This document shows, piece by piece, positions 14,156 through 22,403 of a stretch of 64,000 nt of DNA (positions are counted from its first letter, which is position 1; each line of letters begins with the position of its first letter). Origin of the DNA: Cryobacterium tagatosivorans (GTDB lineage Bacteria; Actinomycetota; Actinomycetes; Actinomycetales; Microbacteriaceae); NCBI RefSeq assembly GCF_004402215.1, contig NZ_SOEZ01000054.1:62001-126000 (forward strand), written 5' to 3'. Both the position numbers and the translations under genes were made by a program. A model generated the notes under the pieces. It was not told the origin of the DNA. It made no database searches and saw nothing but the letters and a program-made list of their open reading frames with translations.

Positions 14156-16771
14156 TCAGGCGACCGGTTCCCCGGCGGCACCGGCGGCCAGCCGGGCGGC
14201 GAGGTAGGGCGCGGTCCTGCTGGTCGGATGCCCCGCCACGGCCAGGGGAGGTCCGGCGGCGATGATGCGCCCGCCCGCGTCCCCGCCGGCCGGGCCGAGG
14301 TCGATGACCCAGTCCGCGGCGGCCACGACGTCCATCTCGTGTTCCACGACCACGACGGTGTTGCCCGCGTCTACCAGCCGGCCCAGCTGGACCAGCAGCA
14401 GCTCGACATCCGCCGGGTGCAGTCCGGTCGTCGGCTCGTCGAGCAGGTAGAGCGTGTGCCCGCGGGACGCCCGCTGCAGCTCGGTGGCGAGCTTGATGCG
14501 CTGGGCCTCTCCTCCGGAGAGCTCGGTGGCCGGCTGGCCCAGCCGGAGGTAACCGAGCCCGACCTCCTTGAGGGTGGCCAGGCTGCGCGCGGCCGGCGCC
14601 ACCTCCGCCAGGAAGGCGCCCGCGGCGGTGACGGTCAGGCCGAGCACGTCGGCGATGGTCTTGCCCTGGTAGGTCACCTCGAGCGTTTCGGCGTTGTAGC
14701 GCGAGCCCAGGCAGGCGGGGCAGGGCGCGTAGCTTCCGGGGAGGAAGAGGAGCTCGACGGCGACGAAACCCTCGCCCAGGCAGGTTTCGCACCGGCCGCC
14801 GGCGACGTTGAAGGAGAACCGGCCGGCACCGAAGCCGCGGCTGCGGGCGGCGTCGGTGGCGGCGAAGGCCGCCCGAACGGCGTCGAACAGGCCCGTGTAG
14901 GTGGCCAGGTTGGAACGCGGCGTGCGCCCGATGGGCTTCTGGTCGACCCGCACGAGCCGGTCGAAGGCATCGTGGCCGGTGACCTCATCGACCCGTGTTC
15001 GGTCGCCGGAGTCCGAGTCCGCGTCCGCGTCCGAGCCCTCGTCCGAGCCCCCGAGCGAGCCCGGCTCCGGGGCATCCGTGCCAGGGGCGGAACGCAGTCG
15101 GCTGCCGACCGCGTCGGCGAGCACCTGGCTGACCAGCGTGGACTTGCCCGACCCGGAGACGCCGGTGACGGCGGTGAGCACCCCGAGCGGGATGTCGGCG
15201 TCGACGCCCTGGAGGTTGTGCCGGCTGATCCCGCGCAGGCGAAGCCAGCCGCGGGCCTCGCGGAGGGGGCGGGGCGCCGCCGCCGGCGACTGCCCGGGGA
15301 AGAGGAACCGGCGGGTCACCGAGGCGGGCACCTCGGCCAGCCCCGCGGCCGGCCCGCTGTAGAGCACGTCTCCGCCGCCCTCGCCCGCGTGCGGGCCGAC
15401 GTCGACCACCCAGTCGGCCCGCCGCACGACGTCCATGTTGTGCTCGACGACGAAGACGGAGTTGCCCGCGCGCCTCAGCTGTTCGAAAACGACCAGGAGG
15501 GGCTCGGCGTCGGCGGGGTGCAGGCCGGCCGACGGCTCATCCAGCACGTAGATCACGCCGAACAGGCCGGAGCGCAGCTGGGTGGCGATGCGCAGGCGCT
15601 GCATCTCGCCCGGCGACAGCGTGGGGGTGGCCCGGCCGAGGCTGAGGTAGCCCAGCCCCAGCTCGACCAGCACCTCGACCCGCCGCAGCAGGTCGCGGGT
15701 GAGCGTCACGGCGACCTCGGTCAGCTCGCCCGATGCCGCCGAACTGCTGGCGGCGGACGCCTGGGTCAGCTCGGACGTGGGGCGGATGACGTCGGCCAGC
15801 GCGGTGAGGGGCAGGGCGTTCACCTCGGCGATGGTGCGCCCCGCGAAGGTGACCGCGAGGGCCTCGGGCTTCAGCCCGCTGCCCCCGCAGAGCCCGCACG
15901 GCCCGGTGTCGACGAACCGGAGGACGCGCTGCCGCATGGTCTGGCTCTTCGAATCGGCCAGCGTGTGCAGGACGTAGCTCTTGGCGCTCCAGAACCGGCC
16001 CTGGTACGGCTTGGCGACCCGGTCCCGCTGCGGGGTGATCTGCACGACCGGCTGCTCGTCGGTGAAGAGGATCCAGTCCCGCGCGTCCCGGGGCAGGTCG
16101 CGCCAGGCCGTGTCCACGTCGTAGCCGAGGGCGATCAGGATGTCGCGCAGGTTCTTGCCCTGCCAGGCGCCGGGCCAGGCCGCGATGGCTCCGTCGCGCA
16201 CGCTCAGGCTCGGATCGGGCACGAGCGAGGACTCGCTGACGGTGTGCGCGCTGCCGAGGCCGTGGCACCGGGGGCAGGCGCCCATCGCGGTGTTGGGCGA
16301 GAAGGAGTCGGATTCCAGGCGCCCGGCGGCCTCCGGGGGATATGTGCCGGCGCGGGAATACAGCATCCGCAGGGAGTTGGAGAGGGTGGTCAGCGTGCCG
16401 ACGGTGGAGCGCGAACTCGGCGTGCCCCGGCGTTGCTGCAGGGCGACGGCCGGCGGCAGCCCGGTGATCTCGTCGACCTGCGGGGTGTGCCCCTGCTGGA
16501 TGAGCCGGCGGGCATACGGGGCCACGGACTCGAAGAAGCGCCGCTGTGCCTCGGCGAAGATCGTGCCGAACGCGAGGGACGACTTGCCCGATCCGGAGAC
16601 GCCGGTGAAGGCGACGATCGCGTCGCGGGGCACGTCGACGTCGATGTTGCGGAGGTTGTTCTCGCGGGCGCCGCGCACCCGGACGAATCCGCCGCCCTGG
16701 ATCGGTTCGTCCTGGGTCGGTTCGTCCTGGGTCGGGCCGGTGGTCCCGGCCTCGGAGAGTGGGGAAGGCAT
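14156..16771 (-). CDS. UvrA-like excinuclease ATPase (UvrA paralogue)
   Basis: The 871-residue ABC ATPase has two cassettes: Walker A GVSGSGKSSLAF (about 57-68) and GVSGSGKSTLVS, signatures LSPGEMQRLRIA and LSGGEAQRIKLA, and Walker B VLDEPSAGLHP and LLDEPTTGLHP. Zinc-finger cysteines are at CPRCHGLG/CGLCGGSG and CETCLGEG/CPACLG. It is some 80 residues shorter than housekeeping UvrA, and the shortfall is between the first Walker A and first zinc finger, where the UvrB-binding domain normally lies. This marks class II UvrA proteins, linked to DNA-damage or drug tolerance. No uvrB or uvrC is adjacent. A 15-bp tandem repeat encodes TQDEP twice near the N terminus. Confidence 0.87.
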   Translation of the reverse strand: MPSPLSEAGTTGPTQDEPTQDEPIQGGGFVRVRGARENNLRNIDVDVPRDAIVAFTGVSGSGKSSLAFGTIFAEAQRRFFESVAPYARRLIQQGHTPQVDEITGLPPAVALQQRRGTPSSRSTVGTLTTLSNSLRMLYSRAGTYPPEAAGRLESDSFSPNTAMGACPRCHGLGSAHTVSESSLVPDPSLSVRDGAIAAWPGAWQGKNLRDILIALGYDVDTAWRDLPRDARDWILFTDEQPVVQITPQRDRVAKPYQGRFWSAKSYVLHTLADSKSQTMRQRVLRFVDTGPCGLCGGSGLKPEALAVTFAGRTIAEVNALPLTALADVIRPTSELTQASAASSSAASGELTEVAVTLTRDLLRRVEVLVELGLGYLSLGRATPTLSPGEMQRLRIATQLRSGLFGVIYVLDEPSAGLHPADAEPLLVVFEQLRRAGNSVFVVEHNMDVVRRADWVVDVGPHAGEGGGDVLYSGPAAGLAEVPASVTRRFLFPGQSPAAAPRPLREARGWLRLRGISRHNLQGVDADIPLGVLTAVTGVSGSGKSTLVSQVLADAVGSRLRSAPGTDAPEPGSLGGSDEGSDADADSDSGDRTRVDEVTGHDAFDRLVRVDQKPIGRTPRSNLATYTGLFDAVRAAFAATDAARSRGFGAGRFSFNVAGGRCETCLGEGFVAVELLFLPGSYAPCPACLGSRYNAETLEVTYQGKTIADVLGLTVTAAGAFLAEVAPAARSLATLKEVGLGYLRLGQPATELSGGEAQRIKLATELQRASRGHTLYLLDEPTTGLHPADVELLLVQLGRLVDAGNTVVVVEHEMDVVAAADWVIDLGPAGGDAGGRIIAAGPPLAVAGHPTSRTAPYLAARLAAGAAGEPVA

Positions 16772-16834: not shown

Positions 16835-18118
16835 TCAGAGCCGGGCCAGCCTTTCGATGTCCTCGAGGAACTCGGCGGCGACCTGGGCGGAGACCGTCGT
16901 GCGGGTGGCGTCGATGGCCGAGAGGTAGTGCCCGGTGCCCGGGCCCTCCGGCGGGGACTCCTCGCCGCCGAAGAGCGCCTGTTCGAGCGCCTCCTGGGAG
17001 GCCCGCCGGGCGGCGTATTCGATGTCGGCGGGTGAGAACCCGTCGCTGGCGGCCACGAGCGCGGCCACGTCGACGTCGGCGGCCACCGTTGGCGGCAGGT
17101 AGCGCTCCCAGATGGCCTGGCGGGCGGCCTCGTCCGGCAGGCCGATCGGGATGACGTAGTCGAACCGGCCGTGCCGCAGGAACGCCGAATCGAGGGCGCG
17201 GATGAAATTCGTGGCGCAGACGAGGAGCCGGTTCGGCTGGTCCCGGAAGGCGGGGATGATCTTGAGAAGCTCATTGGTGACGCCCTGGAGCGCCGACGGC
17301 GGTTCGCCGCCGCGCTGGGCCGCGATCTCCTCCACCTCGTCGATGAAGACGACCACGTGTTCGAGCTCGGAGATCTTGATGAACGTCTCCCGGAGCGCGC
17401 CGGCCAGGCCCCGGGGATCGGCGGCGAGCCGGGACGGGAACACCTCGACGAAGGGCCATTCCAGCCGTGAGGCGATCGCCTTGGCGAAGGTCGTCTTGCC
17501 GGTGCCGGGAGGGCCGAAGAGGACCACGGCCTTCGGCGGCACGACGCCGTACTGTTCGGCCATGTCGGGTTTGGCCAGCGGCATGACCAGGCGCCGCTCG
17601 AGCAGCTCCTTCTCCCGCGCCATCCCGCCCACACCGGCCCAGAGGTCCCGCGGCAGCACGCGCCCGCCCAGTTCGCTGAGCGCCTTCAGCTCCTCCCGCT
17701 GCACCGGGATGTGGCGCTCGAAGTAGCGGAGGTTCTTCTTGACCTCGAAGCCCCGGTTGAGGAACGCGTCGACCCGGGTGGGCGATTCGGGCATGAGCGC
17801 GGACAGCTTCGCCAGGCCGGCCGGCGCCATCCGTCGTTCGAGCGCGGCCAGGAGGGCCGTGCCGATGCCCTGGCTCTGCCACGCTTCGGCGGTGGCCAGG
17901 AAGACGATCCAGCCCTGGGCGTGCGCGGCGCGACCGACGGCCGCGCCGACGACCTGGTCGCCGTGCACCGCGACCACCGCGTGGTCCTTCTGGCAGGACG
18001 CGAGCACCTCGGAGAGCCCGTACACCGGCTCCGCCGTCCCGGCCTTGATCTCCTCCCAGAGGGTCAGGATGCCGTCGAGGTCGTCCGCGTGGAAGTCCCG
18101 GATCCGCCAGCTCGTCAT
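16835..18118 (-). CDS. Fusion of GNAT acetyltransferase and AAA+ ATPase
   Basis: The 427-residue protein has two recognisable halves. Residues 1 to about 140 form a GNAT fold (RDFHADDLDGILTLWEEI, acetyl-CoA loop AEAWQSQGIGTALLAALERR, FLNRGFEVKKNLRYFERH). Residues about 165-400 form an AAA+ ATPase: Walker A LFGPPGTGKTTFAKA, Walker B VVVFIDEVEEIAAQ, sensor VCATNFI, arginine finger RHGRFD, and a small helical lid. The two halves are in one frame without a stop. AAA+ proteins of this kind remodel other proteins, so the acetyltransferase may act on a remodelled partner; that is inference. The 63-bp gap to uvrA-like suggests possible cotranscription. Confidence 0.85.
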   Translation of the reverse strand: MTSWRIRDFHADDLDGILTLWEEIKAGTAEPVYGLSEVLASCQKDHAVVAVHGDQVVGAAVGRAAHAQGWIVFLATAEAWQSQGIGTALLAALERRMAPAGLAKLSALMPESPTRVDAFLNRGFEVKKNLRYFERHIPVQREELKALSELGGRVLPRDLWAGVGGMAREKELLERRLVMPLAKPDMAEQYGVVPPKAVVLFGPPGTGKTTFAKAIASRLEWPFVEVFPSRLAADPRGLAGALRETFIKISELEHVVVFIDEVEEIAAQRGGEPPSALQGVTNELLKIIPAFRDQPNRLLVCATNFIRALDSAFLRHGRFDYVIPIGLPDEAARQAIWERYLPPTVAADVDVAALVAASDGFSPADIEYAARRASQEALEQALFGGEESPPEGPGTGHYLSAIDATRTTVSAQVAAEFLEDIERLARL

Positions 18119-18217
18119 GAGTGCTCCCTTGCCTAGGGGAACAAATCTAGGGCAACCGGGCCGGAGGCGTCCGGGAGATGTCGCTCGTGGTCGGCGCCCG
18201 AGCCCGGGGCGGGCCGA

Positions 18218-18243
18218 ACACTACCCTAACGTTAGGGTAGTGT
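18218..18243. promoter_or_regulatory. Perfect 26-bp palindrome, MerR operator upstream of merR
   Basis: ACACTACCCTAAC and its exact complement meet without spacer. The site lies 29 bp upstream of the MerR-family gene at 18273. TAGTGT at its right edge (18238-18243) can serve as a -10. A near-copy (one mismatch in 20 bp) with TAGAGT in the same relative position lies upstream of prfC at 22330-22349. Confidence 0.75.
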
Positions 18244-18272
18244 GTAAGTCAGCAGGGAAGAGGGGGTGCGGA

Positions 18273-18686
18273 ATGACGGGAAACACGGCGCCGGACGCGC
18301 CCACGGGCTCGGTGACAATGACGATGCACATCGGCGAACTCGCCGAGAAGACCGGACTGTCGCTGCGCACCATCCGCCACTACGACGAGATCGGTCTGCT
18401 CAAGGCATCCGGTCGCACCCACGGCGGCTTCCGCCTGTACTCCCAGGACGACCTCTCCAGGCTGAACCTCATCCGCCGGATGAAGCCGCTCGGCTTCACC
18501 CTCGACGAGATGATCGAGCTGCTGCGGGTGATCGGCACCCTGCAAAACGGCGCCGCCGGTCCTGGTGCCACCGATGTCCGCCTGGAACTGGAAGAATTCA
18601 TCGGGCAGGCCGTCTCTCGGCGGGAGAAGCTCCAGGAGCAGCTCCACATGGCCGACGAGTTCCTCGAACTTTTGCGTCACCAATAA
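18273..18686 (+). CDS. MerR-family transcriptional regulator
   Basis: The protein has 137 residues. A winged HTH (about 18-85) reads MHIGELAEKTGLSLRTIRHY and GLLKASGRTHGGFRLYS, followed by a helix LIRRMKPLGFTLDEMIELL and a dimerisation coiled coil. There are no clustered effector cysteines, so metal sensing is not suggested. ATG 18273 has AGAGGGGG upstream. A perfect 26-bp dyad 29 bp before the start is the expected autoregulatory site, and a near-identical dyad precedes prfC, which makes prfC a probable second target. It lies 123 bp ahead of rnj. Confidence 0.88.
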   Translation: MTGNTAPDAPTGSVTMTMHIGELAEKTGLSLRTIRHYDEIGLLKASGRTHGGFRLYSQDDLSRLNLIRRMKPLGFTLDEMIELLRVIGTLQNGAAGPGATDVRLELEEFIGQAVSRREKLQEQLHMADEFLELLRHQ

Positions 18687-20666: not shown

Positions 20667-22292
20667 TTAGGGGGCCGGGGCGCCGGCGGCGAGGTCTTCC
20701 AGGAGGATCTCCGGGTGGTCCCGCTCCGTGTTGCGGAGGCGCCAGGGCGTGCTGAAGAGGGCGAGCAGCGTGCCGTCGGTGCGCATCAGCACCTCGACCT
20801 GCCGGTCGTGCCCGAGGATGAGGGCGCTCTCCTTGTCGGTGCGCCGGGCGAGCTGGTAGGGCAGCGCCTCCATCCGGATGGCCGCACCGAAGTCGTGGGT
20901 CATCCGTTCTTCGACGACCTCGAACTGCATCGGGCCGACGGCGCCGAGCACCGGGGCCTGGTCGCCGCGGAGCTCTGAGCGCATGACCTGGATGACGCCC
21001 TCGTGGTCGAGCTGGTCGATGCCGCGACGGAACTGCTTGTGCTTGCTCGTGTCCGCGGGGCGCACGACCCGGAAGTGCTCAGGGGCGAAGATCGGCAGCG
21101 CCGGGAAGGCGACGGCGTCGCCCTCGAAGATCGTGTCGCCGACCCGCAGTGCTGAGGCGTTGACCAGGCCGACGATGTCGCCGGGCCAGGCCTCGTCGGC
21201 CACCTCGCGCTCCTTGCCGAACAGGTGCTGCGCGTACTTCGTCGCGAACGGCCGGCCGGAGGCGGCGTGGGTGACGATCATGCCGCGCCGGAACTGGCCG
21301 GAGCAGACCCGCACGAAGGCGACGTAGTCGCGGTGCGAGCTGTTCATGCCCGACTGCACCTTGAAGACGAAGCCGGAGAACTCCGAGCTCACCGCCCGGC
21401 GGCCGCCGACGGCGTCTTCCCGGGCCTCGGCGGCCGGGGCGAAGTCGACGAGTGTGTCGAGGATGTGCTGCACGCCGAAGTTGAGGACGGCCGCGGAGAA
21501 TAGGACCGGCGTGGTTTCGCCGGCCAGGAACCGGGCCTGGTCGTGGTTCTGGTCTTCTTCGGCCAGCAGCTCGGATTCCTCGGCGGCGGCGATCCAGGCG
21601 TCACCCTCTTCGGTGGCCGCCACGTCGGCGCTGATCCGTTCGGAGTCCGCGGTGGTCGCGCCGCCGGCGGTGCGGGTGAACCGGATGAACTCGTCGGTGT
21701 CGCGCTCGATCACGCCGCGGAAGTCGCCGGCAATGCCGACCGGCCAGGTCAGCGGGGTGGGCACGAGGCCGGTGCGGGTGCGGATCTCGTCCATCAGGTC
21801 GAGCGCGGCGGAGCCGGGCCGGTCCCACTTGTTGATCACGGTGATCACAGGGATGCCGCGCTGCTTGCAGACCGCGAACAGCTTCATGGTCTGCACCTCG
21901 AGGCCCTTGCTCGCGTCGACGAGCATGACCGCGGCGTCGACGGCGGAGAGCACGCGGAAGGTGTCCTCGGAGAAGTCGGCGTGGCCGGGGGTGTCGACCA
22001 GGTTGATCACGCTGTCGCGGTATTCGAACTGGATCGCCGCCGAGGTGATCGAGATGCCTCGGGCCTGTTCCATGGCCATCCAGTCCGACACGGTGCCGCG
22101 TCGGCCGGCCTTGCCGTGCGTCGCGCCGGCGCTGGTGATCGCGCGCGCGTGCAGGAGCAGGGCCTCGGTGAGCGTGGACTTGCCGGCGTCGGGGTGCGAG
22201 ATCACCGCGAAGGTGCGGCGACGGGTGGCTTCGGCCTGCACCTGGGGGTTCTGCTGGACCGGTGGGTTGGAGACGTCAGTGAGCGAGGTCAT
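20667..22292 (-). CDS. prfC: Peptide chain release factor 3
   Basis: RF3 is the GTPase that recycles RF1/RF2 from the ribosome. The 541-residue protein has G1 AVISHPDAGKSTLTEA, switch residues GISITSAAIQFEY, G3 DTPGHADFSEDT, G4 NKWD and the RF3-type domain III near the C terminus (PMQFEVVEERM). The start is ATG 22292, with GGAAGGAG upstream; an in-frame upstream extension has no such site. A palindrome matching the operator of the MerR gene at 18273 lies 38 bp upstream, suggesting that RF3 level is under specific transcriptional control here. Confidence 0.93.
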   Translation of the reverse strand: MTSLTDVSNPPVQQNPQVQAEATRRRTFAVISHPDAGKSTLTEALLLHARAITSAGATHGKAGRRGTVSDWMAMEQARGISITSAAIQFEYRDSVINLVDTPGHADFSEDTFRVLSAVDAAVMLVDASKGLEVQTMKLFAVCKQRGIPVITVINKWDRPGSAALDLMDEIRTRTGLVPTPLTWPVGIAGDFRGVIERDTDEFIRFTRTAGGATTADSERISADVAATEEGDAWIAAAEESELLAEEDQNHDQARFLAGETTPVLFSAAVLNFGVQHILDTLVDFAPAAEAREDAVGGRRAVSSEFSGFVFKVQSGMNSSHRDYVAFVRVCSGQFRRGMIVTHAASGRPFATKYAQHLFGKEREVADEAWPGDIVGLVNASALRVGDTIFEGDAVAFPALPIFAPEHFRVVRPADTSKHKQFRRGIDQLDHEGVIQVMRSELRGDQAPVLGAVGPMQFEVVEERMTHDFGAAIRMEALPYQLARRTDKESALILGHDRQVEVLMRTDGTLLALFSTPWRLRNTERDHPEILLEDLAAGAPAP

Positions 22293-22329
22293 GGATTCTC
22301 CTTCCGCGGATGATTCCAGACCTACCACT

Positions 22330-22349
22330 CTACCCTAACGTGAGGGTAG
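22330..22349. promoter_or_regulatory. Near-perfect palindrome upstream of prfC, matching the merR operator
   Basis: CTACCCTAAC and GTGAGGGTAG pair at 9 of 10 positions. On the minus strand the dyad is followed by TAGAGT at the place where the merR copy (18218-18243) has TAGTGT. It starts 38 bp upstream of the prfC ATG. Confidence 0.7.
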
Positions 22350-22403
22350 GTTCTGATGCCCGGCCGGCCCCTCGACGACGAGGTCTGGACGCGCGTGCCG
22401 TGC

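Follow-up and report, generated by a model that had tools for sequence, protein, structure and literature searches.

What does a protein do when it carries an acetyltransferase of the GNAT family and an AAA ATPase in one chain? The question is raised by a gene found in the window, i.e., the whole stretch of DNA analysed here (64,000 nucleotides from Cryobacterium tagatosivorans). The preliminary description of this locus, made from the letters alone, read it as one open frame that joins a complete GNAT domain to a complete AAA domain with Walker A, Walker B and arginine finger, and both the Pfam matches and the motifs agree with this. It also stated that no characterised member was known, and our search of the literature for the architecture returned none, nor was anything found in the papers searched on the fused architecture or its function. 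In the main text of a 2024 review on bacterial acetylation, no word starts with 'AAA' or 'ATPase'. The fusion is correct as an observation and was somewhat overread as a function: GNAT-AAA is a variant built from known parts, already annotated and apparently uncharacterised.

The gene and its parts

The fused gene lies in a host genome of 3.78 Mb distributed over 81 contigs. The open frame starts with ATG and has no internal stops, and its occurrence by chance is ruled out by the Pfam matches, the wide range of relatives and the purifying selection described below. The features of the locus are the following:

16835..18118, minus strand: fused GNAT-AAA gene, a single frame of 427 amino acids (ORF calling, Pfam, relatives)
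17699..18118, minus strand: predicted GNAT domain, residues ~1-140 (Pfam, fold match, order of strands and helices)
17861..17878, minus strand: putative acetyl-CoA loop QSQGIG, residues 81-86 (Q81 to G86)
16964..17656, minus strand: predicted classical AAA module, residues 155-385 (Pfam and alignment to solved structures)
17492..17515, minus strand: Walker A, GPPGTGKT, residues 202-209
17336..17353, minus strand: Walker B, VVFIDE, residues 256-261 (FIDE 258-261)
17165..17176, minus strand: arginine pair R315 and R318 (RHGR), aligned to both Cdc48 modules
14156..16771, minus strand: UvrA (class II-like), a neighbouring gene that runs in the same direction and lies 63 bases downstream of the fused gene

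The sensor-1 residue is N304. The motifs (Walker A and B, sensor-1, arginine pair, pore loop, DG) and the catalytic Tyr are named here by common usage. A predicted model of the whole protein has a mean pLDDT of 64.7 and a pTM of 0.38, with low quality everywhere except in the GNAT part and the lid; since its AAA part is for the most part unreliable, nothing is claimed on the arrangement of the domains.

Distribution of the fusion

The preliminary description had named separate genes in the homologues, with the fusion confined to this genome, as an outcome that would refute its reading. The fusion is instead carried by relatives, by other genomes of the class and the phylum and by plasmids, which rules out that it is private to the host genome or an assembly artefact. 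With the own genome counted, it was found in 24 of 40 relatives at E ≤ 1e-126 (the weakest at 3.1e-126), and, at 1e-40, in 33 of 246 class genomes and 8 of 149 phylum genomes; 20 of 25 genomes of the same genus hold it. The genera that bear it include Cryobacterium, Arthrobacter, Rhodococcus and Streptomyces, together with other actinobacteria. A scan of genome contigs, which reaches only close relatives, gave actinobacterial titles for all of the best 80 of 241 matches, among which the closest named relative is Cryobacterium psychrotolerans (94%). The class and phylum matches listed begin at or before query residue 6, except for a copy in genome G218 and the match in G343, which is truncated by the end of a contig.

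Plasmids carrying the fusion amount to 23 of 72,556 records, all of them actinomycete; 21 span at least 80% of the query, and the copies H21 to H23 cover 90%, 80% and 65%, respectively. Three of the 23 (two from Rhodococcus and one from Kitasatospora) hold the NCBI product name 'bifunctional GNAT family N-acetyltransferase/ATP-binding protein', which denotes an equal architecture and length and is an annotation label only. A phage gene was considered and rejected: no match at 1e-20 was found in 50,697 phage records, and ten viral-contig loci match the AAA part only (23-36%) in a scan with two peptide patterns that can miss divergent sequences. One genus of family f19 has a 65% relative and another has relatives of 51-52%, a contrast in identity that fits horizontal transfer. 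The distribution of GNAT-AAA is patchy and partly plasmid-borne.

When the AAA part alone was used as query, 13 of 198 phylum genomes matched with at least 220 bits and at least 46% identity, while the next matches, which belong to Cdc48-type and other AAA proteins, reached at most 124 bits. On plasmids, the same 23 records were recovered at identities of at least 53%, and the other AAA proteins, many of them named CDC48 family, reached at most 132 bits and 36% (among the best 60 of 85 matches). In all 12 loci checked from the 13 phylum matches, the open frame of the AAA part also contains a GNAT part, as detected with a GNAT profile built from 22 members that are partly the same loci. No intact AAA-only relative was found in these searches of phylum genomes and plasmids, and stand-alone GNATs appeared only as distant matches of ~30 bits among those listed for the full protein. 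As far as the searches extend, this AAA subfamily is accompanied by a GNAT domain.

A second copy in G218 (an 8.5 Mb contig; locus L138, 7612-8987) was considered as an AAA-only gene and rejected: it is split into two frames, with the GNAT part in another frame, and is a frameshifted copy. The copy in G058 (L145) stops at residue 316 and continues in another frame, so that it looks frameshifted near that residue, and G031 has a further piece, located at the end of a contig, that contains one stop.

For the comparison of residues, 117 sequences (the window and 116 loci) were collected. The gene caller returned no focal gene for L150 and L151, and the partial genes of L013, L015, L051, L073, L138, L145, L146, L154, L158 and L159 were left out. 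The 105 retained members, which do not represent 105 independent cases as some loci share genomes, were reduced to 22 at <80% identity. Both domains are under purifying selection in Cryobacterium and its near relatives, where the median pN/pS is 0.20 for the GNAT domain and 0.175 for the AAA module (37 sequences, 666 non-independent pairs); that of the C-terminal stretch is 0.42.

The AAA module

Residues 198-326 match the Pfam family AAA (PF00004) with an E-value of 7.4e-25 and 88.3 bits, against a cut-off of 21.2. All 22 non-redundant members, and likewise 105 of 105 before filtering, retain Walker A, Walker B, the Asn of sensor-1 and the two arginine fingers of the second region of homology, and by these signature residues the module is of the classical AAA type. 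Its best solved relatives are Cdc48/VCP proteins (stretch 159-383; whole-chain E 3.5e-63), whose D2 module (PDB 6oaa and others) shares with it the classical AAA core, the Walker, sensor and arginine-finger residues and the lid end. Residues 326-427 align on p97 646-765, the stretch beyond residue 385, up to residue 427, falling on the lid end of that protein; counted with this end, the module takes up residues ~155-427. In the predicted model, the AAA part gave a Foldseek rmsd of ~17 Å and was mostly of too low quality for use.

There are also differences from these relatives. Unlike Cdc48/VCP, which has two AAA modules, the fused protein has a single AAA stretch in its 427 amino acids, with the GNAT domain in place of the N-domain, and it scores 125.4 bits with the CDC48 NCBIfam model, whose cut-off is 802.65; among the best 25 of its 38 NCBIfam matches, none reaches the cut-off of the model concerned. 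An actinobacterial AAA protein with a small N-domain, as in the fusion, is the Cdc48-like Cpa; according to the report on it (PMC6017811), Cpa has the order N-D1-D2 and occurs only together with proteasome genes, whereas the fusion consists of one AAA module plus GNAT and lacks HbYX. This motif is absent from all 22 C-termini (the window protein ends in ...LARL), which speaks against the proteasome as a partner.

The preliminary description had called the ATPase chaperone-like, a view that the details of the module do little to sustain. The stretch aligned to the pore loop of Cdc48 reads PSRLAADPRG in the window protein, in which the alignment places no aromatic residue such as threading unfoldases hold in pore loop 1. 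This loop is non-aromatic in 21 of the 22 members, L137 alone having a Tyr at 234-236, and Trp or Phe appears in none. The inter-subunit 'DG' of Cdc48 is likewise replaced (PA in the window protein), and the Phe that follows is mostly retained across members. As judged from these aligned residues, a threading chaperone is weakly supported, and remodelling itself is uncertain because the pore loop is non-aromatic and the DG is replaced.

Two other systems that contain related ATPases were weighed. In IetAS defence systems, the gene for the protease IetS adjoins that for IetA, and IetA models do match the AAA part of the fusion (102.6 bits in PADLOC, where IetA is the top family, and 96.8 bits in NCBIfam). 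However, the NCBIfam score falls far short of its cut-off (510) and is exceeded by those of six further AAA models, the genes adjacent in the window encode UvrA and a MerR-type regulator and no protease, and no partner gene recurs across loci, so that a defence component acting in the manner of IetA is very improbable. TmcA/NAT10 proteins combine a helicase-type, ATP-driven motor and a GNAT domain in one chain that acts on RNA, and a machine for nucleic-acid remodelling and RNA acetylation could be imagined by analogy. Nevertheless, the ATPase of the fusion is of the classical AAA type and not a helicase, the order of its domains is the reverse of that of TmcA, and no TmcA-type domain was matched in Pfam (E 0.01) or among the best 25 of 38 NCBIfam matches, which makes this reading hardly credible.

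The GNAT domain

Residues 39-107 match Acetyltransf_1 (PF00583) with an E-value of 3.1e-9, above the curated cut-off. The secondary structure of this part in the predicted model is b-a-a-b-b-b-a-b-a-b-b, the order of strands and helices that is typical for GNAT proteins. Residues 1-139 of the model superimpose on Ard1 of Thermoplasma volcanium (4pv6_I) over 133 residues with a Z of 17.0 and an rmsd of 2.1, in a tie with a second solved GNAT (Z 16.2). According to the model, residues 1-140 have the fold that defines the superfamily. Among solved structures, the GNAT part is closest in sequence to YpeA (E 4.5e-6; PDB 2pdo and 4qus), which is a stand-alone protein and has a Tyr four residues ahead of the Gly that the fusion lacks.

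The preliminary description had made its reading depend on acetyl-CoA binding by the GNAT part, for which the motif is kept in some members and not in others. The window protein satisfies the loop consensus [QRK]xxGx[GA] and probably binds acetyl-CoA; the loop is kept in 16 of the 22 non-redundant members (99 of the 105 unfiltered ones, which are mostly Micrococcales) and has been lost in the other 6. A Tyr at the usual position of the acid (G-4) is found in none of the 22. Its lack is suggestive and not decisive, because 10 of 20 other GNATs of the host genome, as judged by a crude pattern, are also without it (the other 10 have it).

These observations bear on a rival in which the GNAT part is no longer an enzyme, but a sensor of acetyl-CoA or a pure client-binding N-domain, leaving the ATPase as the sole activity. 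The invariance of the AAA residues in all 22 members, set against the incomplete retention of the loop, argues for it, as do the consistent absence of the Tyr, the lower conservation of the GNAT part (mean frequency of the commonest residue of 0.52 versus 0.71 in the AAA part) and a pN/pS of 0.29 in the stretch that includes the acetyl-CoA loop (residues 70-97), where constraint is weaker than in the GNAT domain overall. Against it stand the intact loop of the window protein and of nearly all unfiltered members, and the low overall pN/pS of the domain. Moreover, GNATs generally diverge fast, and active GNATs without the Tyr exist. On balance, we consider the loss of enzymatic activity somewhat unlikely.

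Genomic neighbourhood

The proximity of UvrA had been taken in the preliminary description as a possible pointer to stress or damage response. The neighbour is indeed class II-like and adjoins the fused gene: UvrA_DNA-bind is present among its Pfam families and 'UvrA_inter', the UvrB-binding family, is absent from the 17 Pfam matches listed, a predicted domain content that fits class II. The pairing, on the other hand, is found in only 17 of 116 loci, whose titles all name Cryobacterium. UvrA is adjoining and co-directional in 12 of these 17 (11 upstream and one downstream, as in the window), with gaps of 41-212 bases, and lies 2.3-2.5 kb off in the other 5. The remaining 21 of the 38 loci L011-L048 yielded no UvrA, although at least four of them end at a contig edge; nor was one found in the DNA fetched around the gene in the further 78 loci. 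The pairing, in both orders, may matter inside Cryobacterium and is not family-defining.

A comparison of domain order and neighbours across actinobacteria, as the preliminary description had suggested, yields a widespread fusion and no conserved neighbour. No cluster of neighbours occurs in more than 6 loci (47 of 49 chosen loci), and no Pfam family recurs more than 5 times among 150 of 168 chosen neighbours (loci L125-L160). The genes immediately upstream (co-directional, within 250 bases; 113 loci) vary as well, the highest tallies being aldehyde dehydrogenase-like 13, UvrA 11, lactate dehydrogenase 10, universal stress protein 7 and amino acid permease 6, where each class was named from one representative. 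These three comparisons speak against a conserved operon.

The annotated plasmid neighbourhoods (7 of 23 examined) are mutually unrelated, with glyoxylate genes, a recombinase and hydrogenase maturation genes on different plasmids. One Tsukamurella plasmid copy sits behind a gene for an MFS transporter. That placement and the patchy, partly plasmid-borne distribution would suit an accessory, resistance-type gene whose product acetylates a small molecule (a drug or a metabolite), with the AAA part only regulating or oligomerising it; as the catalytic residues of the AAA part are kept better than anything else in the protein and no transporter or resistance gene recurs next to it across the family, we regard this as quite unlikely.

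On the Rhodococcus plasmid pDK2 (L163), the fused gene is located downstream of two Hsp20 genes and is followed downstream by a Dyp-peroxidase/encapsulin pair. A DUF5994-like gene is present near the fusion in four loci (L134, L137, L138, where it adjoins, and L139), and is also annotated near a copy on a Rhodococcus plasmid.

Proposed mode of action

The reading that we tentatively prefer, although with less than even confidence, is that of a remodelling ATPase crowned by a GNAT domain that transfers acetyl groups in most lineages. The protein would be a single-module AAA ATPase of the Cdc48 type, in which a YpeA-like GNAT replaces the client-binding N-domain of other AAA proteins. It would most likely assemble into a ring in a nucleotide-dependent manner and hydrolyse ATP, the latter to be expected from Walker A, Walker B, sensor 1 and arginine-finger residues that are kept throughout, while the GNAT crown would bind the client and, to judge from the loop, acetyl-CoA in the window protein and most of its relatives. 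Because of the non-aromatic pore loop, the client is more likely to be pulled apart or repositioned locally than threaded. In the lineages that keep the loop, the probable output would be the transfer of an acetyl group to an amine of the client; in those without it, the GNAT fold might serve, speculatively, for recognition only. Since there is no conserved partner gene, the protein probably works alone, and it would represent an accessory gene of Actinomycetota that is patchily inherited.

Acetylation of the client coupled to the ATPase is possible, but speculative. A stricter version, in which a single-ring AAA motor would use ATP to unfold or shift the client locally and expose a buried site for acetylation by one of its own GNAT domains, is unlikely; if true, such a machine would be the acetylation counterpart of FtsH, an AAA protease with its own protease domain. 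Should the activities be coupled, GNAT-AAA would be a protein-modifying enzyme with a built-in motor, as well as a small one-gene system in which to test the cooperation between an AAA motor and an acetyltransferase. If the GNAT domain serves for recognition only, it would still add to the Cdc48 group an N-domain that nobody has studied, and the word 'acetyltransferase' in such annotations would have to be taken with caution.

The MerR-type gene and palindromes beside the locus

The other neighbour of the fused gene encodes a MerR-type regulator (~18318-18686, plus strand). In Cryobacterium psychrotolerans (L011, 4413-5936), the MerR and GNAT-AAA genes are separated by a gene for a sulfate permease (SulP); it is absent from the corresponding interval of the window (18118-18318). 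A palindrome, ACTACCCTAACGTTAGGGTAGT, is located at 18220-18241, just ahead of the MerR-type gene, and a near copy at 22329-22350 lies just ahead of prfC (release factor 3; 20667-22328, minus strand), with 3 mismatches to the 22-base form and 1 to its central 20 bases. A search of the host genome that tolerated as many as 3 mismatches from the 20-base form gave no sites beyond these two. Together they resemble a set of MerR operators, which would connect this regulator with prfC.
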